64,000 nt of DNA from Blastococcus sp. DSM 46786. Its GTDB lineage: Bacteria; Actinomycetota; Actinomycetes; Mycobacteriales; Geodermatophilaceae. The notes under the pieces were generated by a model that worked only from the letters and a program-made list of their open reading frames with translations, did no database searches and was not told the DNA's origin. Each line of letters begins with the position of its first letter. The first letter of the stretch is position 1. Where the stretch lies: NCBI RefSeq assembly GCF_900109665.1, contig NZ_FOAO01000002.1, forward strand, positions 186,001 to 250,000, in the 5' to 3' direction. Shown piece after piece: positions 23,005 to 52,062 of the stretch. Both the position numbers and the translations under genes were made by a program.

Positions 23005-24525
23005 GTGACGGACGTGGGACCGAACGGTACGGGCGGCGACGACGGCGGCGAGGAGCTGCCGGAGCAGATGCGGGTCCGCCGCGCCAAGCTCGACCGGCTG
23101 CGCGACTCGGGGGTCGACCCCTACCCGGTGAGCGTCCCGCGCACGACCACGCTCGCCGCGGTCCGCGCCGGCCACCCCGACCTGGAGCCGGACACGATGA
23201 CCGGCGAGCGGGTCGGCGTCACCGGCCGGGTGATCTTCTTCCGCAACACCGGCAAGCTCTGCTTCGCCACGTTGCGTGAAGGGGACGCCGAGCTCCAGGT
23301 GATGCTCTCCCGCGACCGCGTGGGCGAGGAGGCGCTGGCCGCCTGGAAGTCCGACGTCGACCTGGGTGACCACGTCTTCGTCGAGGGCGAGGTCGGGACG
23401 TCGCGCCGCGGCGAGCTCTCCGTCTTCGCCGACTCCTGGCAGCTGACCGCCAAGGCGCTGCGCCCGCTCCCGGTGGCGCACAAGCCGATGAGCGAGGAGC
23501 TGCGGGTCCGCCGCCGCTACGTCGACCTCATCGTGCGCGACGAGGCCCGCCGCACCGTGCGGCAGCGCGCCACCGTCATGTCCACCCTGCGCGCGGGGCT
23601 GGCCCGACGGGACTTCATCGAGGTCGAGACGCCGATGCTGCAGACCGTGCACGGGGGTGCGGCGGCCCGGCCCTTCCGCACCCACATGAACGCCTTCGAC
23701 CTCGACCTCTACCTGCGCATCGCACCGGAGCTGTTCCTCAAGCGGTGCATCGTCGGCGGGCTGGACCGGGTCTTCGAGATCAACCGCAACTTCCGCAACG
23801 AGGGCGCGGACAGCTCGCACTCCCCGGAGTTCGCGATGCTGGAGTTCTACGCGGCCTACCTGGACTACCAGGACATCGCCGTCCTCACCCGTGAGCTGGT
23901 CCAGGAGAGCTGCGCGGCGCTGTTCGGCGACCACGTCGCCCGCCACCACGACGGCACCGAGCTCGACCTGTCGGGCGAGTGGCGGCAGGTGCGGCTGTTC
24001 GACCTGGTCAGCGAAGCGGTGGGGGAGCCGGTGTCGCCGGAGACCCCGGTCGAGCGGCTGCGCGCGCTGGCCGAACGGCACGAGGTCGGCATCGACCCGG
24101 CCTGGATCCACGGCAAGGTCGTCGAGGAGATCTTCGAGGTGCTGGTGCAACCCTCGCTCCAGGAGCCCACGTTCGTCATGGACTACCCGGTGGACACCTC
24201 GCCGCTGACGCGGGCGCACCGCACGGATGCCGGCGTCGCCGAGAAGTGGGACCTCTACATCGGCGGGATCGAGCGGGGCACCGGCTACTCCGAGCTGGTC
24301 GACCCCGTCGTCCAGCGGGAGCGGTTCACGCAGCAGGCGCTGCTGGCCGCGGCCGGCGACCCCGAGGCGATGGTGCTCGACGAGGACTTCCTCGAGGCGC
24401 TCGAATACGGCATGCCGCCCACCGGCGGGGTCGGAATGGGGATGGACCGGTTGATGATGACTCTCACCGGTCTCGGCATCCGCGAGACGATCCTGTTCCC
24501 GTTGGTCCGGCCAATCAGTTCCTGA
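23005..24525 (+). CDS. lysS: Lysyl-tRNA synthetase, class II
   Basis: 506 aa. N-terminal OB-fold anticodon domain ([20 protein letters not shown]), then the class II catalytic core: motif 2 around [20 protein letters not shown] and motif 3 at [14 protein letters not shown]. Charges tRNA-Lys in the cytoplasm. TAGGCT (22991-22996) lies 8 nt before the GTG, so it may be transcribed leaderless from its own promoter as well as from the coaX operon. Confidence 0.97.
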
Positions 24526-24669
24526 TCGGTCCGTATCCCGATTGCTCCCAATGGGAGACCAATCACGCAGCCATTTCCTATTGCCGCGTGCGCGTGCTGT
24601 AATAGGCCTCGCACCCGTCGGGTGCTATTTCAGTCCGGCCCCCGGGTCGTAGCGAAAAGCGAGGAACGA
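24526..24669 (+). promoter_or_regulatory. AT-rich leader upstream of lsr2
   Basis: By eye this 144-bp gap is far less GC-rich than its surroundings. It contains TCCTATTG, TGTAATAGG (possible extended -10), and a hairpin GCACCC-GTC-GGGTGC (24611-24625) followed by TATTT. Lsr2 binds AT-rich DNA, so this is a plausible autoregulatory site. Confidence 0.5.
24540..24564 (+). terminator. Weak hairpin after lysS
   Basis: GATTGCTCCC and GGGAG-AC-CAATC pair as two 5-bp segments with a 2-nt bulge and a 3-nt loop. No T run follows, so the terminator call is tentative. Confidence 0.45.
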
Positions 24670-25020
24670 ATGGCGCGCAAGGTCCAGGTCATCCTGAGCG
24701 ACGATCTCGACGAGAACCTCCCGGCCGACGAGACCGTCAGTTTCGCGCTGGACGGCACGTCGTACGAGATCGACCTGGCGGAGAAGAACGCCCAGGAGAT
24801 GCGCGACGCCTTCGCCCGTTACATCTCGGCGGCGCGCAAGGTCGGTCGCGGCACCCGTTCCTCCGGTGGTGGCCGCTCCCGGGCCACCGGCGGTGGCGGT
24901 CGCATGGACCGCGAGCAGGCCGGCGCGATCCGCGACTGGGCCCGCAAGAACGGCCACGCGGTCAGCGACCGCGGCCGCATCCCGGCCAGCGTCGTCGAGG
25001 CCTACGAGGCCGCGCACTGA
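24670..25020 (+). CDS. lsr2: Lsr2 nucleoid-associated xenogeneic silencer
   Basis: 116 aa H-NS-like bridging protein. N-terminal dimerisation domain ([20 protein letters not shown]), flexible Gly/Ser/Arg linker, and the C-terminal AT-hook-like domain in which RGR of [17 protein letters not shown] inserts into the minor groove. Represses AT-rich, often foreign, DNA. GAGGAACG precedes ATG 24670. Lies between lysS and clpC as in mycobacteria. Confidence 0.97.
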
Positions 25021-25028
25021 CGGCCTCG
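25005..25028 (+). terminator. Hairpin over the lsr2 stop codon
   Basis: CGAGGCCG and CGGCCTCG form a perfect 8-bp stem whose 8-nt loop contains the TGA. TCC follows. Moderate support as terminator. Confidence 0.4.
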
Positions 25029-25083
25029 TCCGGAGGCTCGGCCCGAGCGTGCGAGGGCTGAGAGGGGCGAGGTCCTTCTGCTC

Positions 25084-25127
25084 GCCCCCGGCACTCGCTC
25101 CGCTCGCCCCCGGCACTCGCTCCGCTC
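25084..25127 (+). repeat. 22-bp tandem duplication
   Basis: A 22-bp unit beginning GCCCCCGGCACTCGC occurs twice head to tail, directly before repeat family B copy 4. Confidence 0.9.
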
Positions 25128-25157
25128 GCGCCGGGACCCTGCGAGGGGGCCGTTCCA
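25123..25157 (+). repeat. Dispersed repeat family B, copy 4
   Basis: CGCTCGCGCCGGGACCCTGC, then a G-rich run and CCGTTCCA. Shares the CCGTTCCA tail with the copy at 16809-16844. Confidence 0.6.
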
Positions 25158-25303
25158 CCACCTCACCCGACGTAGTCGGACTTCGACCCGCGTGGCGGGG
25201 GCGCGCAGCGTCCCCACCCGCGGGTCGATTCGTCTCGGCTCCACGCAGCTCGACCCGGTACCTGGCCGCGGTGGAGGCCGACAGGCCGACGGTGTGCACC
25301 GTC

Positions 25304-25314
25304 CGCTCACGGCG
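25304..25314 (+). promoter_or_regulatory. Candidate ClgR operator upstream of clpC
   Basis: CGCTCACGGCG fits the core CGCYNANRGCG recalled for ClgR, the activator of clp genes in actinobacteria. The flanks do not match the extended consensus. Its centre lies about 48 bp before the start inferred from the SigR-like promoter. Confidence 0.4.
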
Positions 25315-25324
25315 TAACGGGGGC

Positions 25325-25350
25325 GGAACAGCACCCCGGGGCCCGTGGTT
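25325..25350 (+). promoter_or_regulatory. Candidate SigR/SigH-type promoter of clpC
   Basis: GGAAC, 18-nt spacer, GTT matches the thiol-stress ECF sigma consensus (GGAAT-N18/19-GTT). clp genes are known SigR-regulon members in Streptomyces. It predicts a 5' leader of about 155 nt. Confidence 0.5.
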
Positions 25351-25512
25351 GGAACGAGCAGCCACCCACGGGACCCGTCGGACGACGACGGGACGGCGTG
25401 GTCCGCGACTACAGTGGAAAGACCGGTGCCCCCGCGCGCCGACGGATGTCGGGTGCTCCTTCCCACACGGGGAGGGCAGTGCCGGACCAGCCGGTCAGAG
25501 GAGAAGCAGCAG

Positions 25513-28050
25513 ATGTTCGAACGGTTCACCGACCGAGCCCGCCGTGTCGTCGTCCTGGCCCAGGAAGAGGCCCGGATGCTCAACCACAACTACATCGGCA
25601 CCGAGCACATCCTCCTGGGTTTGATCCACGAGGGTGAGGGCGTCGCTGCCAAGGCCCTGGAGTCCCTCGGCATCTCGCTCGAGGGTGTCCGCCAGCAGGT
25701 CGAGGAGATCATCGGGCAGGGCCAGCAGGCGCCGTCCGGGCACATCCCCTTCACCCCGCGGGCGAAGAAGGTCCTGGAGCTGTCGCTGCGCGAGGCGCTG
25801 CAGCTCGGCCACAACTACATCGGCACCGAGCACATCCTGCTCGGCCTGATCCGCGAGGGCGAGGGCGTCGCCGCCCAGGTCCTGGTGAAGCTCGGCGCCG
25901 ACCTCAACCGCGTCCGCCAGCAGGTCATCCAGCTGCTGAGTGGCTACCAGGGCAAGGAGCCGGCCGCGGCCGGCGGCCCCGCCGAGGGCACCCCGTCGAC
26001 CTCGCTGGTCCTCGACCAGTTCGGCCGCAATCTGACGCAGGCCGCCCGCGACTCCAAGCTCGACCCGGTCATCGGGCGGGCCAAGGAGATCGAGCGGGTC
26101 ATGCAGGTCCTGTCGCGGCGGACCAAGAACAACCCGGTCCTCATCGGCGAGCCCGGCGTCGGCAAGACCGCCGTCGTCGAGGGCCTGGCGCAGGCCATCG
26201 TCAAGGGCGAGGTGCCCGAGACGCTGAAGGACAAGCAGCTCTACACGCTGGACCTCGGCGCGCTCGTCGCCGGTTCCCGCTACCGCGGTGACTTCGAGGA
26301 GCGCCTCAAGAAGGTCCTCAAGGAGATCCGCACCCGCGGCGACATCATCCTGTTCATCGACGAGATCCACACCCTCGTCGGGGCGGGTGCCGCGGAGGGC
26401 GCGATCGACGCCGCCAGCATCCTCAAGCCGATGCTTGCCCGCGGTGAGCTGCAGACCATCGGTGCCACCACGCTGGACGAGTACCGCAAGCACCTGGAGA
26501 AGGACGCCGCGCTCGAGCGGCGGTTCCAGCCGATCCAGGTGGGTGAGCCGACCCTGGCCCACACGATCGAGATCCTCAAGGGCCTGCGCGACCGCTACGA
26601 GGCGCACCACCGGATCAGCATCACCGACGGCGCCTTGGTGGCCGCGGCGACGCTGGCCGACCGGTACATCTCCGACCGCTTCCTGCCGGACAAGGCGATC
26701 GACCTGATCGACGAGGCCGGCGCCCGGATGCGCATCAAGCGGATGACCGCGCCGCCGGACCTGCGCGAGTTCGACGACAAGATCGCGGCCGTCCGCCGCG
26801 AGAAGGAGTCGGCGATCGACGCCCAGGACTTCGAGAAGGCCGCGTCGCTGCGCGACACCGAGAAGCAGCTGCTGGGCGAGAAGGCCGAGCGCGAGAAGCA
26901 GTGGAAGGCCGGCGACATGGACGTCGTCGCCGAGGTCGACGACGAGCAGATCGCCGAGGTGCTGGCCAACTGGACCGGCATCCCCGTCTTCAAGCTCACC
27001 GAGGAGGAGACCACGCGTCTGCTCCGCATGGAGGACGAGCTCCACAAGCGGATCATCGGCCAGGAAGAGGCCATCAAGAGCGTCAGCCAGGCGATCCGGC
27101 GCACGCGGGCGGGCCTCAAGGACCCGCGCCGTCCCGGTGGTTCCTTCATCTTCGCCGGCCCCTCGGGCGTCGGTAAGACGGAGCTGGCGAAGGCGCTGGC
27201 GCAGTTCCTGTTCGGTGAGGACGACGCGCTCATCCAGATCGACATGGGCGAGTTCCACGACAAGTTCACCGTGTCGCGGCTTGTCGGTGCCCCTCCCGGT
27301 TACGTCGGTTACGACGAGGGTGGGCAGCTGACCGAGAAGGTGCGGCGCAAGCCGTTCTCGGTGGTCCTCTTCGACGAGATCGAGAAGGCGCACGCGGACG
27401 TGTTCAACACACTTCTGCAGGTGCTGGAGGACGGCCGGCTCACCGATGGTCAGGGCCGGGTCGTGGACTTCAAGAACACGATCCTCATCCTCACGACCAA
27501 CCTCGGTACGCGGGACATCTCCAAGGCCGTCGGCCTCGGCTTCCAGGCCGGCAACGACGACCAGTCGAACTACGACCGGATGAAGCTCAAGGTCAACGAG
27601 GAGCTCAAGCAGCACTTCCGGCCGGAGTTCCTCAACCGGATCGATGACATCGTCGTGTTCCACCAGCTGACCGAGAACGAGATCATCCAGATCGTGGACC
27701 TGATGGTCGCCCGGCTCGAGACCCAGCTGGCGAACAAGGACATGTCGCTGGAGATCACCCCTGCGGCCAAGAAGCTGCTGGCCTCCCGTGGCTTCGACCC
27801 CGTCCTGGGTGCCCGGCCGCTGCGCCGGACCATCCAGCGCGAGATCGAGGACGCGCTGAGCGAGAAGATCCTCTACGGCGACCTGACCGGTGGTCAGATC
27901 ATCGTGGTGGACGTCGACGACGCCGAGGGCCCCGCGCAGAAGTTCACCTTCCGCGGCGAGGCCAAGCCGATCGACCTGCCCGACACCCCGCCGGTGGCCC
28001 TCTCGGGCGCCGAGGGTGACGAGGACGGTCCGGCGGCGGCCGCCGAGTAA
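25513..28050 (+). CDS. clpC: ATP-dependent Clp protease ATPase subunit ClpC
   Basis: 845 aa Hsp100 unfoldase that feeds ClpP. Two Clp-N repeats (residues 1-145; [18 protein letters not shown], again [18 protein letters not shown]). The D1 ATPase has Walker [13 protein letters not shown]/middle domain follows ([21 protein letters not shown]). The D2 ATPase has GPSGVGKT and [11 protein letters not shown]. The C-terminal [22 protein letters not shown] is conserved. ATG 25513 gives the standard [20 protein letters not shown] start with GAGGAG upstream. Confidence 0.98.
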
Positions 28051-46256: not shown

Positions 46257-46374
46257 ACGGGTAGCCGGGCCCGTCGTGTCGCGGGGCCCGGAATCGTCGG
46301 AGGGCGGCGCTACCGTCGTGCCCGAGCCGCCGGGAGCGCCCGGCCGGTGGAGCAGCTCAGGAGATGGTCCGACG

Positions 46375-46713
46375 ATGAACAGCGACCCAGCCCCCGTGGT
46401 CTCCCCGCCCCGGGTCGACGGGTCAGGGGAGGGATCCGTGCAGGCCGGAGACGCAGGCCTCTCGCGGCGCGAGCACGAGATGCTCGGTTTCGAGCGCCAG
46501 TGGTGGCGGCGTGCCGGCGCGAAGGAGACGGCGATCCGCGACCTGTTCGACACGACGCCGACCAGGTACTACCAGGCGCTCAACGCCCTCGTCGACCGCC
46601 CGGAGGCGCTGGCGGCCGACCCGCTCCTCGTGCGGCGCCTGCGCCGGGTGCGGACGGCGCGTCAGCGGACGCGTTCCGCGCAGGTCCTGGGCAAGGGGAA
46701 TGACATGGATTAG
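46375..46713 (+). CDS. DUF3263 protein
   Basis: 112 aa. An unordered N-terminus, then LSRREHEMLGFERQWWRRAGAKETAIRDLFDTTPTRYYQALNALVDRPEAL, the helix-turn-helix-like DUF3263 block found across actinobacteria, probably DNA-binding. AGGAG precedes ATG 46375. Its TAG stop is part of the -10 box of the next gene; in other actinobacteria a LytR_C gene also follows. Confidence 0.9.
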   Translation: MNSDPAPVVSPPRVDGSGEGSVQAGDAGLSRREHEMLGFERQWWRRAGAKETAIRDLFDTTPTRYYQALNALVDRPEALAADPLLVRRLRRVRTARQRTRSAQVLGKGNDMD

Positions 46714-46724
46714 ATTTGCTCACC

Positions 46725-48245
46725 GTGGGCAGGCACGCCGCGTCAGGCAGTGACGGACTGGGTCAGGGACACGTGTCTCCAGCCGCTGGGCGGCGCCGGA
46801 CCGACACCCCGGACGGGTCCTTGCCCCACGCCGGCCTGAGCGACCACCCGACCGCTCCCGGGCGCGACCGCGCCGACCTTCGGCGTGACGTCGTGGCGGA
46901 TGCCCCCGCCGAGGCGGCCCGCCAGGTCTCCCGCTCCCGGCTGCCGCTACCGCCCGTGCCGGCCGGCCCGCGCGCCGCGGGTGCCTCCGCACCGGCCGGT
47001 CCGCGCGCTGCGGGTGCCTCTGCACCGGCCGGTCCGCGCGCCGGGGCCGTCCCCGCACCGCACACCAGCGCCGCGCCGTTCCGCGCGGTGCCCTCGCCCG
47101 CTCCGGCCCCCGCCGTCCTCGGGGACGTCCCCGCGCCGGTCCGCGCCGCCGACGTCCCCGCGCCGGTCCGCGCCGCCGACGTCGTCGCGCCCCGGGGCGC
47201 CGACGCGCCACTGCCCGGCGCCCACCTCGTGGGCAAGGTCGCCAGCCCGACGGGCCTCCTGGTCGACGACGAGCCGCTGGCCAGCACCGGCCCGGCCCGC
47301 GGCCTGGGCCGCAGCGCCCCCGCGCCGCGCGTCCCCCGGGTGCCGCGGCAGACCACCCCGTCCGGCGCGCCCTCGTCCTCCTACGGCGACTGGACCAAGC
47401 CCTCGCGCACCGACGAGACGGGCCGCTCGCGGCTCGGGCCGGCGCTGCAGGCGCCGGCCACCACGGCGATCCCCGAGCGCGGCACCGCCGCCCGCCGCGA
47501 CGACGTGGCCGACCTCGGTTACGACGACTTCGGCTACGACGAGTTCGGCCACGACGGGCCCGCCTACGACGACGCCCACGACCTCGACGCCGAGCTCGCC
47601 GCTACCGCAGCCGGCGCAGCCAAGGTGAAGGGCGGCCGTGCCGCCTACCGCGCCGAGCGGCAGGCGGCCGACGCCGCGCGTCGGAAGGCGGCCAAGCGCA
47701 ACGGCACCCCCGAGGTGATCTTCGACGACGAGCCCGAGCGCAAGCCGCGCCGGGTGCTCAAGGGCCTGGTCGCCATGGCCGTCGTGGCCGGCGCGGTCCT
47801 CGGCGTCTACACGGTCACCGCTCCGGAGAAGGAGGAAGCCGCCGCCACCTCCCCCCCTGCCAGCGCGCCGACCGTCGCCGTCCCCACGGCCGCCCTGCCG
47901 CCGCTGCCCGAGAACCCCGTGGTCGTCGAGCCGGTGATCACCACCCCGGTGCGCGTGCCCGTCACCGTCCTCAACGCCACGAACATCAGCGGCCTCGCCG
48001 CCACGATCTCCGGCACCGTCGTCGCCGGCGGCTGGGAGTCGCCGGGTGTCGGCGCCTACCCGGGCACCGACGTGTCGGCGACCACCGTCTTCTTCACCGA
48101 GGGCGACGAGCAGCAGCGCCAGGCCGCGCTGCAGCTGGTCGACCAGTTCCCCGAGCTCGCCGGCCCCGCGCCGCGCTTCTTCGACGTGGCCGACGCCCCC
48201 GCTCCGGGGCTGGTCATCGTCGCCACGGGCAACTGGCAGCCCTGA
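46725..48245 (+). CDS. LytR C-terminal domain membrane protein
   Basis: 506 aa. A long low-complexity cytoplasmic region, one membrane helix at about residues 345-367 (RRVLKGLVAMAVVAGAVLGVY), and a C-terminal extracytoplasmic LytR_C domain (VPVTVLNATNISGLAATISGTVVAGGWES). The N-terminal part has DNA-level tandem repeats: an 11-aa unit PAGPRAAGASA (about 46960-47058) and an exact 27-bp unit (47124-47177, DVPAPVRAA). TAGATT (46711-46716) lies 8 nt before GTG 46725; TTG 46716 is rejected as start. Confidence 0.85.
   Translation: MGRHAASGSDGLGQGHVSPAAGRRRTDTPDGSLPHAGLSDHPTAPGRDRADLRRDVVADAPAEAARQVSRSRLPLPPVPAGPRAAGASAPAGPRAAGASAPAGPRAGAVPAPHTSAAPFRAVPSPAPAPAVLGDVPAPVRAADVPAPVRAADVVAPRGADAPLPGAHLVGKVASPTGLLVDDEPLASTGPARGLGRSAPAPRVPRVPRQTTPSGAPSSSYGDWTKPSRTDETGRSRLGPALQAPATTAIPERGTAARRDDVADLGYDDFGYDEFGHDGPAYDDAHDLDAELAATAAGAAKVKGGRAAYRAERQAADAARRKAAKRNGTPEVIFDDEPERKPRRVLKGLVAMAVVAGAVLGVYTVTAPEKEEAAATSPPASAPTVAVPTAALPPLPENPVVVEPVITTPVRVPVTVLNATNISGLAATISGTVVAGGWESPGVGAYPGTDVSATTVFFTEGDEQQRQAALQLVDQFPELAGPAPRFFDVADAPAPGLVIVATGNWQP
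47124..47177 (+). repeat. 27-bp exact tandem repeat in the LytR_C gene
   Basis: Two identical 27-bp copies starting GACGTCCCCGCGCCGG encode DVPAPVRAA twice; a third, partial copy follows. It keeps the frame. Confidence 0.9.
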
Positions 48246-48301: not shown

Positions 48302-51190
48302 GTGCGTTCCCTCCGCGGGCCCGTGCGTCCCCGCCCGCGCCCCGGTGCGCGCGCCGCGGCCGCCGCCCTGCTCGCCCTCGCCCTGCCGGCCGGTCTGCTC
48401 GTGCTGGCGCCCCCGGCGGTCGCCGCCGAGGTGCGCACGGAGGAGGCCCGGGTGCCTTCGGGCTCCGGTGAGGACGCCGTCGAGCTCGACACCACGCTGT
48501 ACCTCCCCGACACCGACGAGCCCGCGCCCGCGGTCGTGCTCGCGCACGGCTTCGGCGGCAGCAAGCGCTCGGTCGCCGACGACGCCGCCGACCTGGCCGA
48601 CCGCGGGTACGTCGTCCTCACCTACTCCGCCCGCGGGTTCGGGGAGAGCACCGGGCGGATCGGGCTCAACGACCCTCGCTACGAGATCGCCGACCTCTCC
48701 ACGCTGCTCGACCTGCTGGCCGGGCGCGAGGAGGTCGAGCTCGACGCCGCCGGCGACCCGAGGGTGGGGGTCGCCGGCGGGTCCTACGGCGGGGCGCTCG
48801 CCCTGCTCGGCGCCGCCTACGACGAGCGGGTCGACGTCATCGCGCCGCAGATCACCTGGCACTCGCTGACCACGTCGCTCTTCCCGTCACAGACCGGCGA
48901 CCTCGCTGCCGACACGGTCGCCGCGGTCCCGCAGACCGAGGCGGCCGGCGTCTACAAGCAGCTGTGGTCGGGGCTGTTCTTCGGCATCGGCTCGGCGGCG
49001 GGCGGCCTGCTGGACTCCTTCGGGGGCGGCGGCGCCGGTGCTGCCGCGCTGCCCACCGGGCTGCCCGAGCAGCTGCTCGAGCAGGCCGCCGCGGACCCGG
49101 AGGCCGCCGAGCTGCTGCTCACCTGCGGTCGGTTCCGGATCGAGGTCTGCGAGGCCTACCAGACGGCCGCGTCCACCGGCACGCTCACGCCGGAGGTCGC
49201 CGCGGTGCTCGACCGCGGCAGCCCGGCCGGCGTCCTCGGCCGCATCGACGCACCGACGCTGCTGGTCCAGGGCACGCAGGACTCGCTCTTCGGCCTCGGC
49301 CAGGCGGACGCGAACGCGCGCGGGATCGCCGCGGACGGGACCCCGGTCAAGGTGGTCTGGTTCGCCGGCGGCCACGACGCCTCCCCGTCCGGTGAGCAGG
49401 CGCAGGGCCTGCGCGACCAGGTCGCCGGCTGGTTCGACTGGCACCTGCGGGGGCAGGGCGAGGACCCCGGGACCGGCTTCGAGTTCCCCGCGCCCACCGG
49501 CCTCGGCGCCACGGTCGGCCGCGTGCAGGGTGGCGGCCAGACCATCGCGGCGACCGCCTACCCCGGGCTGGACGGCGCCGAGCCGGCCACCCGCCGGGCG
49601 GTGCCCGTCTCCGGCCCCGTGCAGCCCGTCGTCACCCCCGCCGGCGGCACGCCCGCCGCGCTCACCACCGTCCCCGGCCTGGGCGCGCTGACCGCGGCCC
49701 TGGGCGGCGCCACCGCGGAGATCCCCGGCCAGTTCGCCGCCTTCGACAGCGCCCCGCTCGAGGCCCCCGTGGAGGTCGTCGGCGCCTCGACCGTCGACCT
49801 CGCGGTCGCCTCGCCCAGCGGCAGCGCCACCCTGTTCGCCAAGCTCTACGACGTCGGCCCGGACGGCGCGACCACGCTGCCCGGCGGGCTGGTCGCGCCC
49901 CTCGCGCTCACCGGGATCTCCACCGACCCCACCGCCCCGACGCGGGTGAGCGTCACGCTCCCGGGCATCGTGCACCGCTTCGAGACCGGTCACACCATGC
50001 GCGTGCTGGTCTCCTCCACCGACCAGGCCTACGCGCTGCCCGACGAGGCGGCGGTCTACTCGGTCGGGCTGGCCTCGGACGTCGCCCCCAACGGCGTGGC
50101 CGCCGGTGAGACGACCCTCGCTGCTCCCGAGGTGGACGGCCGCAGCGAGTCCGCGACCGGTACCTCCCGCTGGTGGGTGCTGCTCGCCGTCCTCGCCGCC
50201 CTCGGGTTGCTGAGCTGGCTGGCCGCCCGCTGGTGGGGGAGCCGCCGCGACCGGCAGATCTCGCAGGTCGAGCCGGACGGCGAGGACGTCCCGCTGCGCT
50301 TCACCGGGGTGACCAAGGCCTACAAGGACGGCTTCGTCGCCGTCCGCGACCTCTCCTTCGAGGTGCGCCGCGGCCAGGTGCTCGGCCTGCTCGGGCCCAA
50401 CGGCGCCGGCAAGACGACGTCGCTGCGCATGCTGATGGGCCTCATCAAGCCCACGGAGGGGCGGATCAGCATCTTCGGGCACGCCGCCGGCCCCGGGGCG
50501 CCGGTGCTGTCCCGGCTCGGTTCGTTCGTGGAGGGCACCGGCCTGCAGCCGCACCTCTCCGGCCGCGACAACCTCACCCTCTACTGGGCCGCCACCGGCC
50601 GGCCGGCCGAGGACGCGCACATGGAGGAGGCCATCAGGGTCGCGGGGCTCGGCGCCGCCATCGACCGGCCGGTGCGCCGCTACAGCCAGGGCATGCGCCA
50701 GCGGGTCGCGATCGCCCAGGCGATGCTCGGGCTGCCCGACCTGCTGGTGCTCGACGAGCCGACCAACGGGCTGGACCCGCCGCAGATCCACGCCATGCGC
50801 GAGGTGCTGCGCTCCTACGCCGCCACCGGCCGTACGGTGATCGTCTCCAGCCACCTGCTCAGCGAGATCGAGCAGACCTGCAGCCACGTCGTCGTCATGG
50901 CGAAGGGGCAGAAGATCACGCAGGGGACCGTGGAGGAGATCGTCGGTACCGGCGGTTCGGTGCTGGTCGGCCTGGCCGACGACGCCGACACCGACCGGGC
51001 GGTCGCCATCTTGTCGTCGCTGCCCGGGGTGACCGCCGGGCGCACGGACGAGGGTCTCGTGGCCGAGCTCGACGGTGCCCGGCGCGCCGACGTGCTGCAG
51101 GCGCTGGTGGCCGCGGGCATCGCCGTCGAGCAGTTCACGCCGCGCCGCCGGCTTGAGGACGCCTTCCTGGCGCTGGTGGGGGAGTCATGA
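48302..51190 (+). CDS. Exported S15-type hydrolase fused to an ABC ATPase
   Basis: 962 aa, one uninterrupted frame. Residues 1-42: basic start, hydrophobic core and AVAA cleavage site. About 45-390: alpha/beta hydrolase of the CocE/X-Pro-dipeptidyl-peptidase type, with AHGFGGSKRS, nucleophile GGSYGG (Ser about 161), acid in QGTQDSLF (Asp about 326) and GGHDAS (His about 358). About 430-600: PepX_C-like beta domain. About 624-644: membrane helix (WWVLLAVLAALGLLSWLAA). From 663: ABC ATPase with GPNGAGKTT, YSQGM signature, LLVLDEPTNGLDPP and SSHLLSE. Implied topology is hydrolase outside, ATPase inside. Overlaps the permease gene (ATGA). Substrate unknown. Confidence 0.93.
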   Translation: MRSLRGPVRPRPRPGARAAAAALLALALPAGLLVLAPPAVAAEVRTEEARVPSGSGEDAVELDTTLYLPDTDEPAPAVVLAHGFGGSKRSVADDAADLADRGYVVLTYSARGFGESTGRIGLNDPRYEIADLSTLLDLLAGREEVELDAAGDPRVGVAGGSYGGALALLGAAYDERVDVIAPQITWHSLTTSLFPSQTGDLAADTVAAVPQTEAAGVYKQLWSGLFFGIGSAAGGLLDSFGGGGAGAAALPTGLPEQLLEQAAADPEAAELLLTCGRFRIEVCEAYQTAASTGTLTPEVAAVLDRGSPAGVLGRIDAPTLLVQGTQDSLFGLGQADANARGIAADGTPVKVVWFAGGHDASPSGEQAQGLRDQVAGWFDWHLRGQGEDPGTGFEFPAPTGLGATVGRVQGGGQTIAATAYPGLDGAEPATRRAVPVSGPVQPVVTPAGGTPAALTTVPGLGALTAALGGATAEIPGQFAAFDSAPLEAPVEVVGASTVDLAVASPSGSATLFAKLYDVGPDGATTLPGGLVAPLALTGISTDPTAPTRVSVTLPGIVHRFETGHTMRVLVSSTDQAYALPDEAAVYSVGLASDVAPNGVAAGETTLAAPEVDGRSESATGTSRWWVLLAVLAALGLLSWLAARWWGSRRDRQISQVEPDGEDVPLRFTGVTKAYKDGFVAVRDLSFEVRRGQVLGLLGPNGAGKTTSLRMLMGLIKPTEGRISIFGHAAGPGAPVLSRLGSFVEGTGLQPHLSGRDNLTLYWAATGRPAEDAHMEEAIRVAGLGAAIDRPVRRYSQGMRQRVAIAQAMLGLPDLLVLDEPTNGLDPPQIHAMREVLRSYAATGRTVIVSSHLLSEIEQTCSHVVVMAKGQKITQGTVEEIVGTGGSVLVGLADDADTDRAVAILSSLPGVTAGRTDEGLVAELDGARRADVLQALVAAGIAVEQFTPRRRLEDAFLALVGES

Positions 51191-52062
51191 CGACGAGCAC
51201 CGAGCACGTGCAGCCGACCGGCGCGGTCGCCGGCTACCGGCCCGAGCGGACGCTGCGGCTCTCGGTCGAGCTGCGCCGGCAGTTCAAGCGGCGGCGCACC
51301 CTCGGCGTCTTCGCCCTGATGGTCGCGCTGCCGCTGGTGCTCATCGGGGCGCTGCAGCTGGGCGCCAGCGAGGAGGCGGCGGAGAACACCCGGATCAACC
51401 TGGTCGACGTCGCGACGGCCAGCGGGCTGAACTTCACCCTCTTCGTGCTCTTCGCGACCACCGGCTTCTTCCTCGTCGTGGTGTACGCGCTCTTCTTCGG
51501 CGACACCGTGGCGGTCGAGGCGCAGTGGGGGTCGCTGCGGTACGCGCTGGCCACCCCGGTGCCGCGGATGCGGCTGCTCCGGCAGAAGTGGCTGGCGGCG
51601 CTGGTGCAGTCGGTCGCCGCGCTGCTCACCCTCGCGGCGGTGGCGGTGGTCGCCGGGGGCATCGCGTTCGGCTTCGGGGACATCCGGACCCCGGTCGGCG
51701 TGGGGATCGACCAGGGCGAAGGCATGCTGCGGCTGGCCGGGATGCTGGGCTACCTCGCCGTCCACCTGCTCGTCGTCGGCGCGCTGGCGTTCTGGTTCTC
51801 CACCATCACCGACGCGCCCCTGGCCGCGGTCGGCGGGGCGGTGTTCACGATGGTCGTCTTCGCGATCCTCGACCAGGTGGAGCAGCTGGGGTCCATCCGC
51901 GACTGGTTCCCGACGGCGGAGGAGTTCGCCTGGACCGACCTGCTGCAGACGCCGGTCGACGACGGCGACCTGTTCCGCGGCGTGATCCAGTCGCTGGTCT
52001 ACATCGCCGTCTTCACCGCGCTGGGCTTCCGCCACTTCGCCCGCCGCGACGTGACCAGCTAG
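51187..52062 (+). CDS. ABC-2 type permease partner of the hydrolase-ATPase
   Basis: 291 aa, about six membrane helices (LGVFALMVALPLVLIGALQL; FTLFVLFATTGFFLVVVYALFFGD; LVQSVAALLTLAAVAVVAGGIAF; YLAVHLLVVGALAFWFST; AAVGGAVFTMVVFAILD; a last one near the end). SLRYALATPVPRMRLLRQKWLAAL is the typical ABC-2 cytoplasmic motif. ATG 51187 overlaps the stop of the fusion gene, so the two products should be made together and form a transporter. Confidence 0.9.
   Translation: MTTSTEHVQPTGAVAGYRPERTLRLSVELRRQFKRRRTLGVFALMVALPLVLIGALQLGASEEAAENTRINLVDVATASGLNFTLFVLFATTGFFLVVVYALFFGDTVAVEAQWGSLRYALATPVPRMRLLRQKWLAALVQSVAALLTLAAVAVVAGGIAFGFGDIRTPVGVGIDQGEGMLRLAGMLGYLAVHLLVVGALAFWFSTITDAPLAAVGGAVFTMVVFAILDQVEQLGSIRDWFPTAEEFAWTDLLQTPVDDGDLFRGVIQSLVYIAVFTALGFRHFARRDVTS

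Follow-up and report, generated by a model that had tools for sequence, protein, structure and literature searches.

In Escherichia coli, the ATP-binding cassette (ABC) transporter YbbAP is bound to an extracytoplasmic esterase, TesA, to which it is proposed to hand hydrophobic compounds from the membrane; on the basis of cryo-electron microscopy and assays, its authors propose that substrates are first extracted and then hydrolysed at the outer face, although extraction itself is unconfirmed (PMC12646458). Here we compare this and other described systems with a gene of Blastococcus sp. DSM 46786 that encodes an alpha/beta hydrolase and an ABC ATPase in one frame and is followed by a gene for an ABC-2 permease. 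The gene lies in a 64,000-nucleotide stretch of DNA with a high G+C (GC) content (the window), which is part of a 328-kb contig in a 4.59-Mb assembly. Residue numbers are those of the window's 962-residue fusion protein.

By analogy, YbbAP-TesA appears to be the closest working counterpart of this pair. It is, however, a Type VII transporter with an FtsX/MacB-type permease and a separate TesA, whereas the Blastococcus locus combines an ABC-2 permease with an alpha/beta hydrolase and has enzyme and ATPase on one chain. TesA has a fold other than the alpha/beta hydrolase fold of the fusion. Similarly, in FtsEX with RipC, EnvC or CwlO, an ATPase inside the cell governs a hydrolase outside; these systems differ from the fusion by their FtsX-type permease, by acting through cell-wall hydrolases and by consisting of separate proteins. 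A third relevant case is the Rv1218c/Rv1217c/Rv1216c/Rv1215c group of M. tuberculosis and BCG, in which an ABC exporter from actinobacteria shares its regulon with a hydrolase-like gene and which we liken to the fusion by descriptions only. The authors propose a secreted lipid for the Rv1218c/Rv1217c system (PMC3993263, PMC4155686), and Rv1215c, induced about 2- to 3-fold compared with 21- to 49-fold for the pump, is called a peptidase in one paper (PMC3993263) and judged distantly similar to a lipid esterase in the other (PMC4155686). Unlike the fusion, these are separate genes, with a methyltransferase between the exporter and Rv1215c. Both YbbAP-TesA and Rv1218c/Rv1217c resemble the fusion in logic and not in membership.

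The enzyme half shares with cocaine esterase and X-Pro dipeptidyl-peptidase (CocE-PepX) the Pfam families S15 and PepX_C and an SYxG nucleophile elbow. It differs from them in scoring higher against chains named "Lipase", in an HGFGG segment and in being joined to a membrane helix and an ABC ATPase. The likeness to DrrA and lantibiotic-protection exporters lies in the best NCBIfam matches of the ATPase, both below their curated cut-offs, and in the ABC-2 families of the permease. Exporters of these types have a separate cytosolic ATPase, whereas the ATPase of the fusion shares the frame of the hydrolase at all 47 loci compared. Paper searches aimed at this hydrolase-ATPase fusion gave no description of it among the papers listed, in a literature without most subscription papers and all preprints. 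The preliminary description of this DNA had likewise known of no characterised member, although the family is common and a plasmid relative from Tsukamurella carries the annotation "alpha/beta fold hydrolase"; the gene after it, overlapping by four bases as in the window, is labelled "ABC transporter permease". ABC transporters with an outside hydrolase are known already; the fusion differs in carrying both enzyme and motor on a single chain.

Architecture of the hydrolase-ATPase fusion

The gene starts with GTG and continues in one frame without interruption, which establishes the covalent link between enzyme and ATPase (Table 1). That a single 962-residue frame leads from a hydrolase into an ATPase had been proposed from the DNA alone and is borne out by the reading of the open reading frames (ORFs) and by three Pfam domains above their curated cut-offs: Peptidase_S15 (residues 58-329, 70.1 bits, cut-off 23), PepX_C (residues 477-581, 53.5 bits, cut-off 22.5) and ABC_tran (residues 682-822, 105.5 bits, cut-off 25). 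The characteristic motifs start at residues 159 (GGSYGG), 323 (QGTQD), 356 (GGHD), 698 (Walker A), 794 (the YSQGM signature) and 815 (Walker B). There is one copy of the fusion in its own genome, and the remaining matches listed there concern the ATPase part, apart from one PepX_C-like stretch. An ORF on the minus strand (48887-50887) and other overlapping frames were taken as mirror ORFs of high-GC DNA.

The alignment used to assess conservation (A6) holds 47 fusions, of which four come from other classes of the phylum. It derives from 47 loci picked for spread over the phylum (20, 17 and 10 from three sets, two sharing one genome) by leaving out L132, L134 and L190 and adding the window, L046 and L061. 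Genes at the 47 loci were called with a codon-usage script, and their start codons are approximate. The intact triad read from the window recurs throughout, Ser161, Asp327 and His358 being invariant in every row. Furthermore, the triad and the ATPase motifs are jointly invariant in all 47 fusions; since both active sites are kept together, neither half is a relic. Purifying selection acts on close relatives: in each of six pairs, the ratio of nonsynonymous to synonymous substitution rates was below 0.45 in each of five regions, the hydrolase core ranging over 0.16-0.44 and the ATPase over 0.05-0.21.

For the enzyme part, Pfam listed only families of the alpha/beta-hydrolase type and PepX_C, and none of the TesA type. 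When a profile of 28 hydrolase domains was compared with solved chains, the best matches were 8yzn and 8yzo, two chains named "Lipase", over the core and the C-terminal part. MHETase/polyester-type and other hydrolases ranked next, over the core, and cocaine esterase scored lower, with its best match over the PepX_C part. In keeping with this, the HGFGG segment (His82-Gly86) is typical of lipases, whereas CocE uses a tyrosine for its oxyanion hole. The S15 label of the preliminary description stands at the level of Pfam: it agrees with the S15 and PepX_C scores and with the triad, and the ranking of solved chains places the likeness to cocaine esterase mainly in PepX_C. By these comparisons the enzyme half appears S15/CocE-like by Pfam with a lipase/esterase-like core, and such a core leans towards an ester or acyl substrate.

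The ATPase is complete, with Walker A, signature, Walker B and H-loop all present, and Walker A, Walker B and Glu744, at the Q-loop position, are invariant in the 47 fusions. Of nine ABC paralogues of the same genome (L002-L010), five have Glu here, two have Asp and two have Gln, so that replacement of the Gln is common in this branch of ATPases, and a reading of Glu744 as a specific mark of lantibiotic immunity was ruled out. An assignment to a defence system was also rejected; all four PADLOC matches are confined to the ATPase half.

The hydropathy scan (19-residue windows, above 1.6) revealed two hydrophobic segments only, with peak windows starting at residues 18 and 624. The first ends in AVA-A and is plausibly a cleavable signal peptide in the window protein; in several other lineages the hydrophobic N-terminal stretch, judged by eye, has no obvious cleavage site and resembles an uncleaved anchor. 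The second segment reaches at least 1.6 on the Kyte-Doolittle scale (19 residues) in 46 of the 47 fusions and 1.41 in the remaining one. The helix and the linker are less conserved in sequence than other parts and retain their hydrophobic character. Lysines and arginines in the 15 residues flanking the helix are more numerous after than before it in every fusion (means of 4.3 and 0.8), which by the positive-inside rule places the ATPase inside. Only three cysteines occur between residues 40 and 962. Two of them, Cys275 and Cys283 in the lid, are both present in 46 of the 47 rows and both gone in the remaining one (L182), the third being Cys860; retention or loss as a pair is what one would see if an exported domain contained a disulfide, and a disulfide is probable here. 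An outside hydrolase and an inside ATPase are therefore supported, as previously suggested, by the charge distribution, the paired cysteines and the anchor-like tails of some stand-alone relatives, while the cleaved signal peptide of the same proposal is plausible for the window and not obvious in several lineages.

Table 1. Features of the fusion gene and its permease partner (positions in the window)
Feature	Position	Strand	Basis
Fusion protein gene, 962 residues (alpha/beta hydrolase, PepX_C, transmembrane helix, ABC ATPase)	48302..51190	+	ORF list, Pfam, orthologues
Export signal at the N-terminus (residues 1-42), hydrophobic stretch starting near residue 18, AVA-A end	48302..48427	+	Hydropathy; cleavage putative
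Alpha/beta hydrolase core with lid, residues 43-400 (approximate limits)	48428..49501	+	Pfam, profile against PDB
Catalytic Ser161 (GGSYGG)	48782..48784	+	Invariant in 47/47 rows
Lid cysteines Cys275 and Cys283, probable disulfide	49124..49150	+	Alignment of 47 rows
Catalytic Asp327 (QGTQD)	49280..49282	+	Invariant in 47/47 rows
Catalytic His358 (GGHD)	49373..49375	+	Invariant in 47/47 rows
PepX_C beta-sandwich domain, residues 477-581	49730..50044	+	Pfam; best-aligned region for cocaine esterase
One transmembrane helix, roughly residues 624-643, with arginines C-terminal to it	50171..50230	+	Hydropathy, charge count
ABC ATPase domain, residues 663-885, complete motifs, Glu744 at Q-loop position	50288..50956	+	Pfam, alignment
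C-terminal ATPase extension, residues 886-962, conserved LEDAF	50957..51187	+	Alignment
ABC-2 permease, 291 residues, ATGA overlap with fusion gene	51187..52062	+	ORF list, Pfam; next gene at 47/47 loci

Permease partner, distribution and stand-alone relatives

The permease matches ABC2_membrane_2 in Pfam (52.8 bits, cut-off 27.2), and the four families listed for it up to an E value of 0.1 are all ABC2_membrane families, FtsX being absent from the list. The overlapping ABC-2 partner proposed for the window proved to be a constant companion: the permease gene is the next same-strand gene at all 47 loci, and each of these downstream genes matches PF12679 and PF12730 (E ≤ 0.001). Beyond the permease we found no recurring partner, no family having more than three members among the neighbours scanned (upstream at 35 of 47 loci, second downstream at 36 of 45). 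For the 37 loci shared by alignments A6 and A7, the distances between loci calculated from hydrolase, ATPase and permease correlate with one another (0.64-0.73), and none of 999 label permutations reached the hydrolase-permease value; shared descent alone would give such a correlation equally.

We examined 60 genomes, comprising that of the window, 22 others of the genus, 13 from other genera of the family and 24 from other families of the order; genome counts here and below were made by hand from match listings. Matches to both halves were present in 20 of the 22 genus genomes (one with a stop in frame, G010, and one in two pieces of a single open frame), in all 13 from other genera of the family, although one of these matches stopped at residue 715, and in 15 of the 24 from other families, some in two pieces. 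The preliminary description had considered that close relatives might all carry separate genes, as after a local fusion or an assembly artefact. Relatives carry the same fusion instead, and the same open frame across the phylum sample rules out both origins. In L103 and G010, the frame is broken in the ATPase half, which may be real loss or sequencing error.

A profile of the junction (alignment A1), which extends from PepX_C to Walker A, draws a sharp line between fusions and stand-alone hydrolases. Among 394 genomes of the class, 105 had a match at E ≤ 4.7e-50, the next match being at 1.1e-32; 104 of the 105 extend to the Walker A end of the profile, that in G290 ends before the ATPase part, and several lie at contig ends. 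Among 246 genomes of the phylum, the fusion was present in 17, nine of these outside the class. G217 and G074 each have two full-span matches. One family of large genomes (f33), taken by their size as Streptomyces-like, has 38 genomes listed with some match; 35 of them have the fusion, and at least one further genome of that family is without it. It was found in none of the 25 genomes listed for genus g19 of family f8, where 14 had weak matches and 11 had none. A search of 72,556 plasmid records returned two matches at 1e-80, neither covering more than 80% of the query.

Related hydrolases without an ATPase form a set of 23 (L137-L139 and L200-L219). They look exported and have the same domain order as the fusion up to the end of PepX_C, and no ATPase was found in the frame of any of the 23, the frame of L219 running to the end of the fetched stretch. 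The triad and the cysteine pair are present in L137 and L138. Judged by eye, three of the 23 (L137, L216 and L217) have C-terminal tails that look sortase- or membrane-anchor-like, that of L137 being LPxTG-like. In L219, from outside the class, the frame goes about 190 residues beyond the hydrolase match, and this tail presumably resembles a cell-wall-binding repeat. L137, L138 and L139 lie close to a sucD-like gene in three genomes, and a sucC-like gene was called in two (by eye).

In a tree of the hydrolase domains of 47 fused and 23 stand-alone proteins, from a quick search without bootstrap, the two kinds fall on the two sides of one branch (Shimodaira-Hasegawa-like approximate likelihood ratio test, 100), and the four loci from outside the class adjoin the stand-alone side. 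Most simply, the fusion would have arisen once, early in the history of the phylum, the tree by itself being compatible with gain or loss.

A possible mechanism and its alternatives

We tentatively propose that the permease, driven by ATP, draws a hydrophobic ester or an acyl or peptide conjugate out and that the tethered hydrolase cleaves it outside, a proposal that we hold at a little under an even chance. Two copies of the fusion and two of the permease would form one membrane complex, the 2:2 ratio being inferred from half-size ABC-2 exporters. The N-terminal signal would direct the hydrolase and PepX_C domains outside, one helix would span the membrane, and the ABC ATPase would remain inside and power the permease. 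Binding and hydrolysis of ATP would move the permease, and this movement may pull an ester, a thioester or an acyl/peptide conjugate, hydrophobic or amphipathic in nature, from the membrane, or export it, to the outer face, where the hydrolase at the exit would cleave what is delivered. In favour of this speak the joint invariance of both active sites, the constant permease partner, the correlated distances, the topology, the single branch of the fusions, solved relatives of the enzyme that are named lipases, and the precedent of YbbAP-TesA. Sequence shows the architecture, the intact active sites, the pairing with the permease and the wide conservation, and it supports the topology; the complex, the direction, the substrate class and the coupling are hypothetical. 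The preliminary description had suggested that hydrolysis is coupled to export or extraction, or that the outer domain senses substrate, and both ideas are likewise hypothetical.

Several points weigh against this proposal. The profile of the permease had no match among solved chains at E ≤ 0.1, so that transport and its direction lack support of their own. The hydrolase could also act on external substrates uncoupled from ATP, with the helix as a mere tether. Furthermore, the fusion was not found in two of the 22 genus genomes (G018 and G019), in nine of the 24 from other families of the order or in 289 of the 394 class genomes, incomplete genomes included.

Among the alternatives, a mechanical switch would involve no transport: the ATPase cycle, acting through the permease and the tether, would open and close the outer hydrolase in the manner of FtsEX. 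The covalent joining of ATPase and outer enzyme fits this, and FtsEX directly activates peptidoglycan hydrolases in mycobacteria (PMC10694151). The partner is, however, an ABC-2 permease with no FtsX match listed, its 291 residues seem to leave little room for a large outer domain, and conservation is comparatively low in the helix and linker, which would be odd for a precise lever. We consider this switch unlikely.

Another explanation, to which we give the same low weight, is that the transporter exports a compound or peptide made by the cell and that the outer hydrolase, at the exit, strips away the acyl or peptide group that protects it. No biosynthetic family recurs beside the pair, three members being the maximum in the neighbours scanned, which speaks against such a role even though the ATPase comes closest to DrrA and the lantibiotic-protection exporters, below cut-off, and the hydrolase gene Rv1215c/Bcg_1275c shares a regulon with the Rv1218c/Rv1217c pump (PMC3993263, PMC4155686).

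The tails of L137, L216 and L217 and the longer repeat-like tail of L219 suggest that stand-alone hydrolases are tethered by other means, and a surface hydrolase could use the transporter only as an anchor, transport and hydrolysis being independent. A plain anchor, however, needs neither this ATPase and the adjacent permease, found together at 47 of 47 loci, nor an origin on a single branch, and we regard this explanation as quite improbable. Finally, the hydrolase domain could be a mere sensor whose binding of a ligand outside gates the ATPase, in the manner of antibiotic-detoxification transporters. This agrees with the sub-threshold resemblance of the ATPase to lantibiotic-protection subunits and with its Q-loop Glu, a replacement of Gln shared by five of the nine paralogues, but is very improbable given the invariant full triad, which a binding-only domain would not need, and the scanned neighbours, in which no regulator or kinase recurs in more than two members.

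Returning to extraction coupled to cleavage, a broader form of it would hold that these proteins are ancient, phylum-wide single-chain enzyme-motors in which each ATP cycle of the ABC-2 permease extracts a membrane-held acyl compound for the enzyme on the same chain, independently of YbbAP-TesA and with other permease and enzyme families. We consider this wider statement possible but doubtful.

Neighbouring genes and significance

Directly upstream of the fusion lie a DUF3263 gene and a gene with a LytR_C domain (window 46276-48245), which we take to correspond to the neighbours Rv0430-Rv0431 (VirR, linked to vesicle release) of M. tuberculosis. LytR_C is directly upstream in 59 of the 65 related loci with enough upstream DNA and is missing in L110 and L113-L117 (Actinosynnema, Pseudonocardia); because of this, the VirR-like gene was rejected as a mechanistic partner and taken as family-level synteny. 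A convergent HAD gene lies downstream in 69 of 75 related loci, and a threonine synthase-like neighbour extends to other families of the order. Elsewhere in the window, positions 24001-28000 have a GC content of 68.8%, compared with 71-77% in the rest; a long ClpC-like frame (25345-28050, named by eye) fills much of this dip and may explain it.

That ABC transporters can have a partner enzyme across the membrane is only beginning to be recognised. The fusion family is an old one, many actinobacteria have it, and most Streptomyces-like genomes are probably among them. It also offers a lead for annotation, one annotated relative being named for its enzyme half only. With both catalytic centres and the tether on one chain, and with one partner, the coupling between ATP and hydrolysis is cleanly testable by single point mutants.

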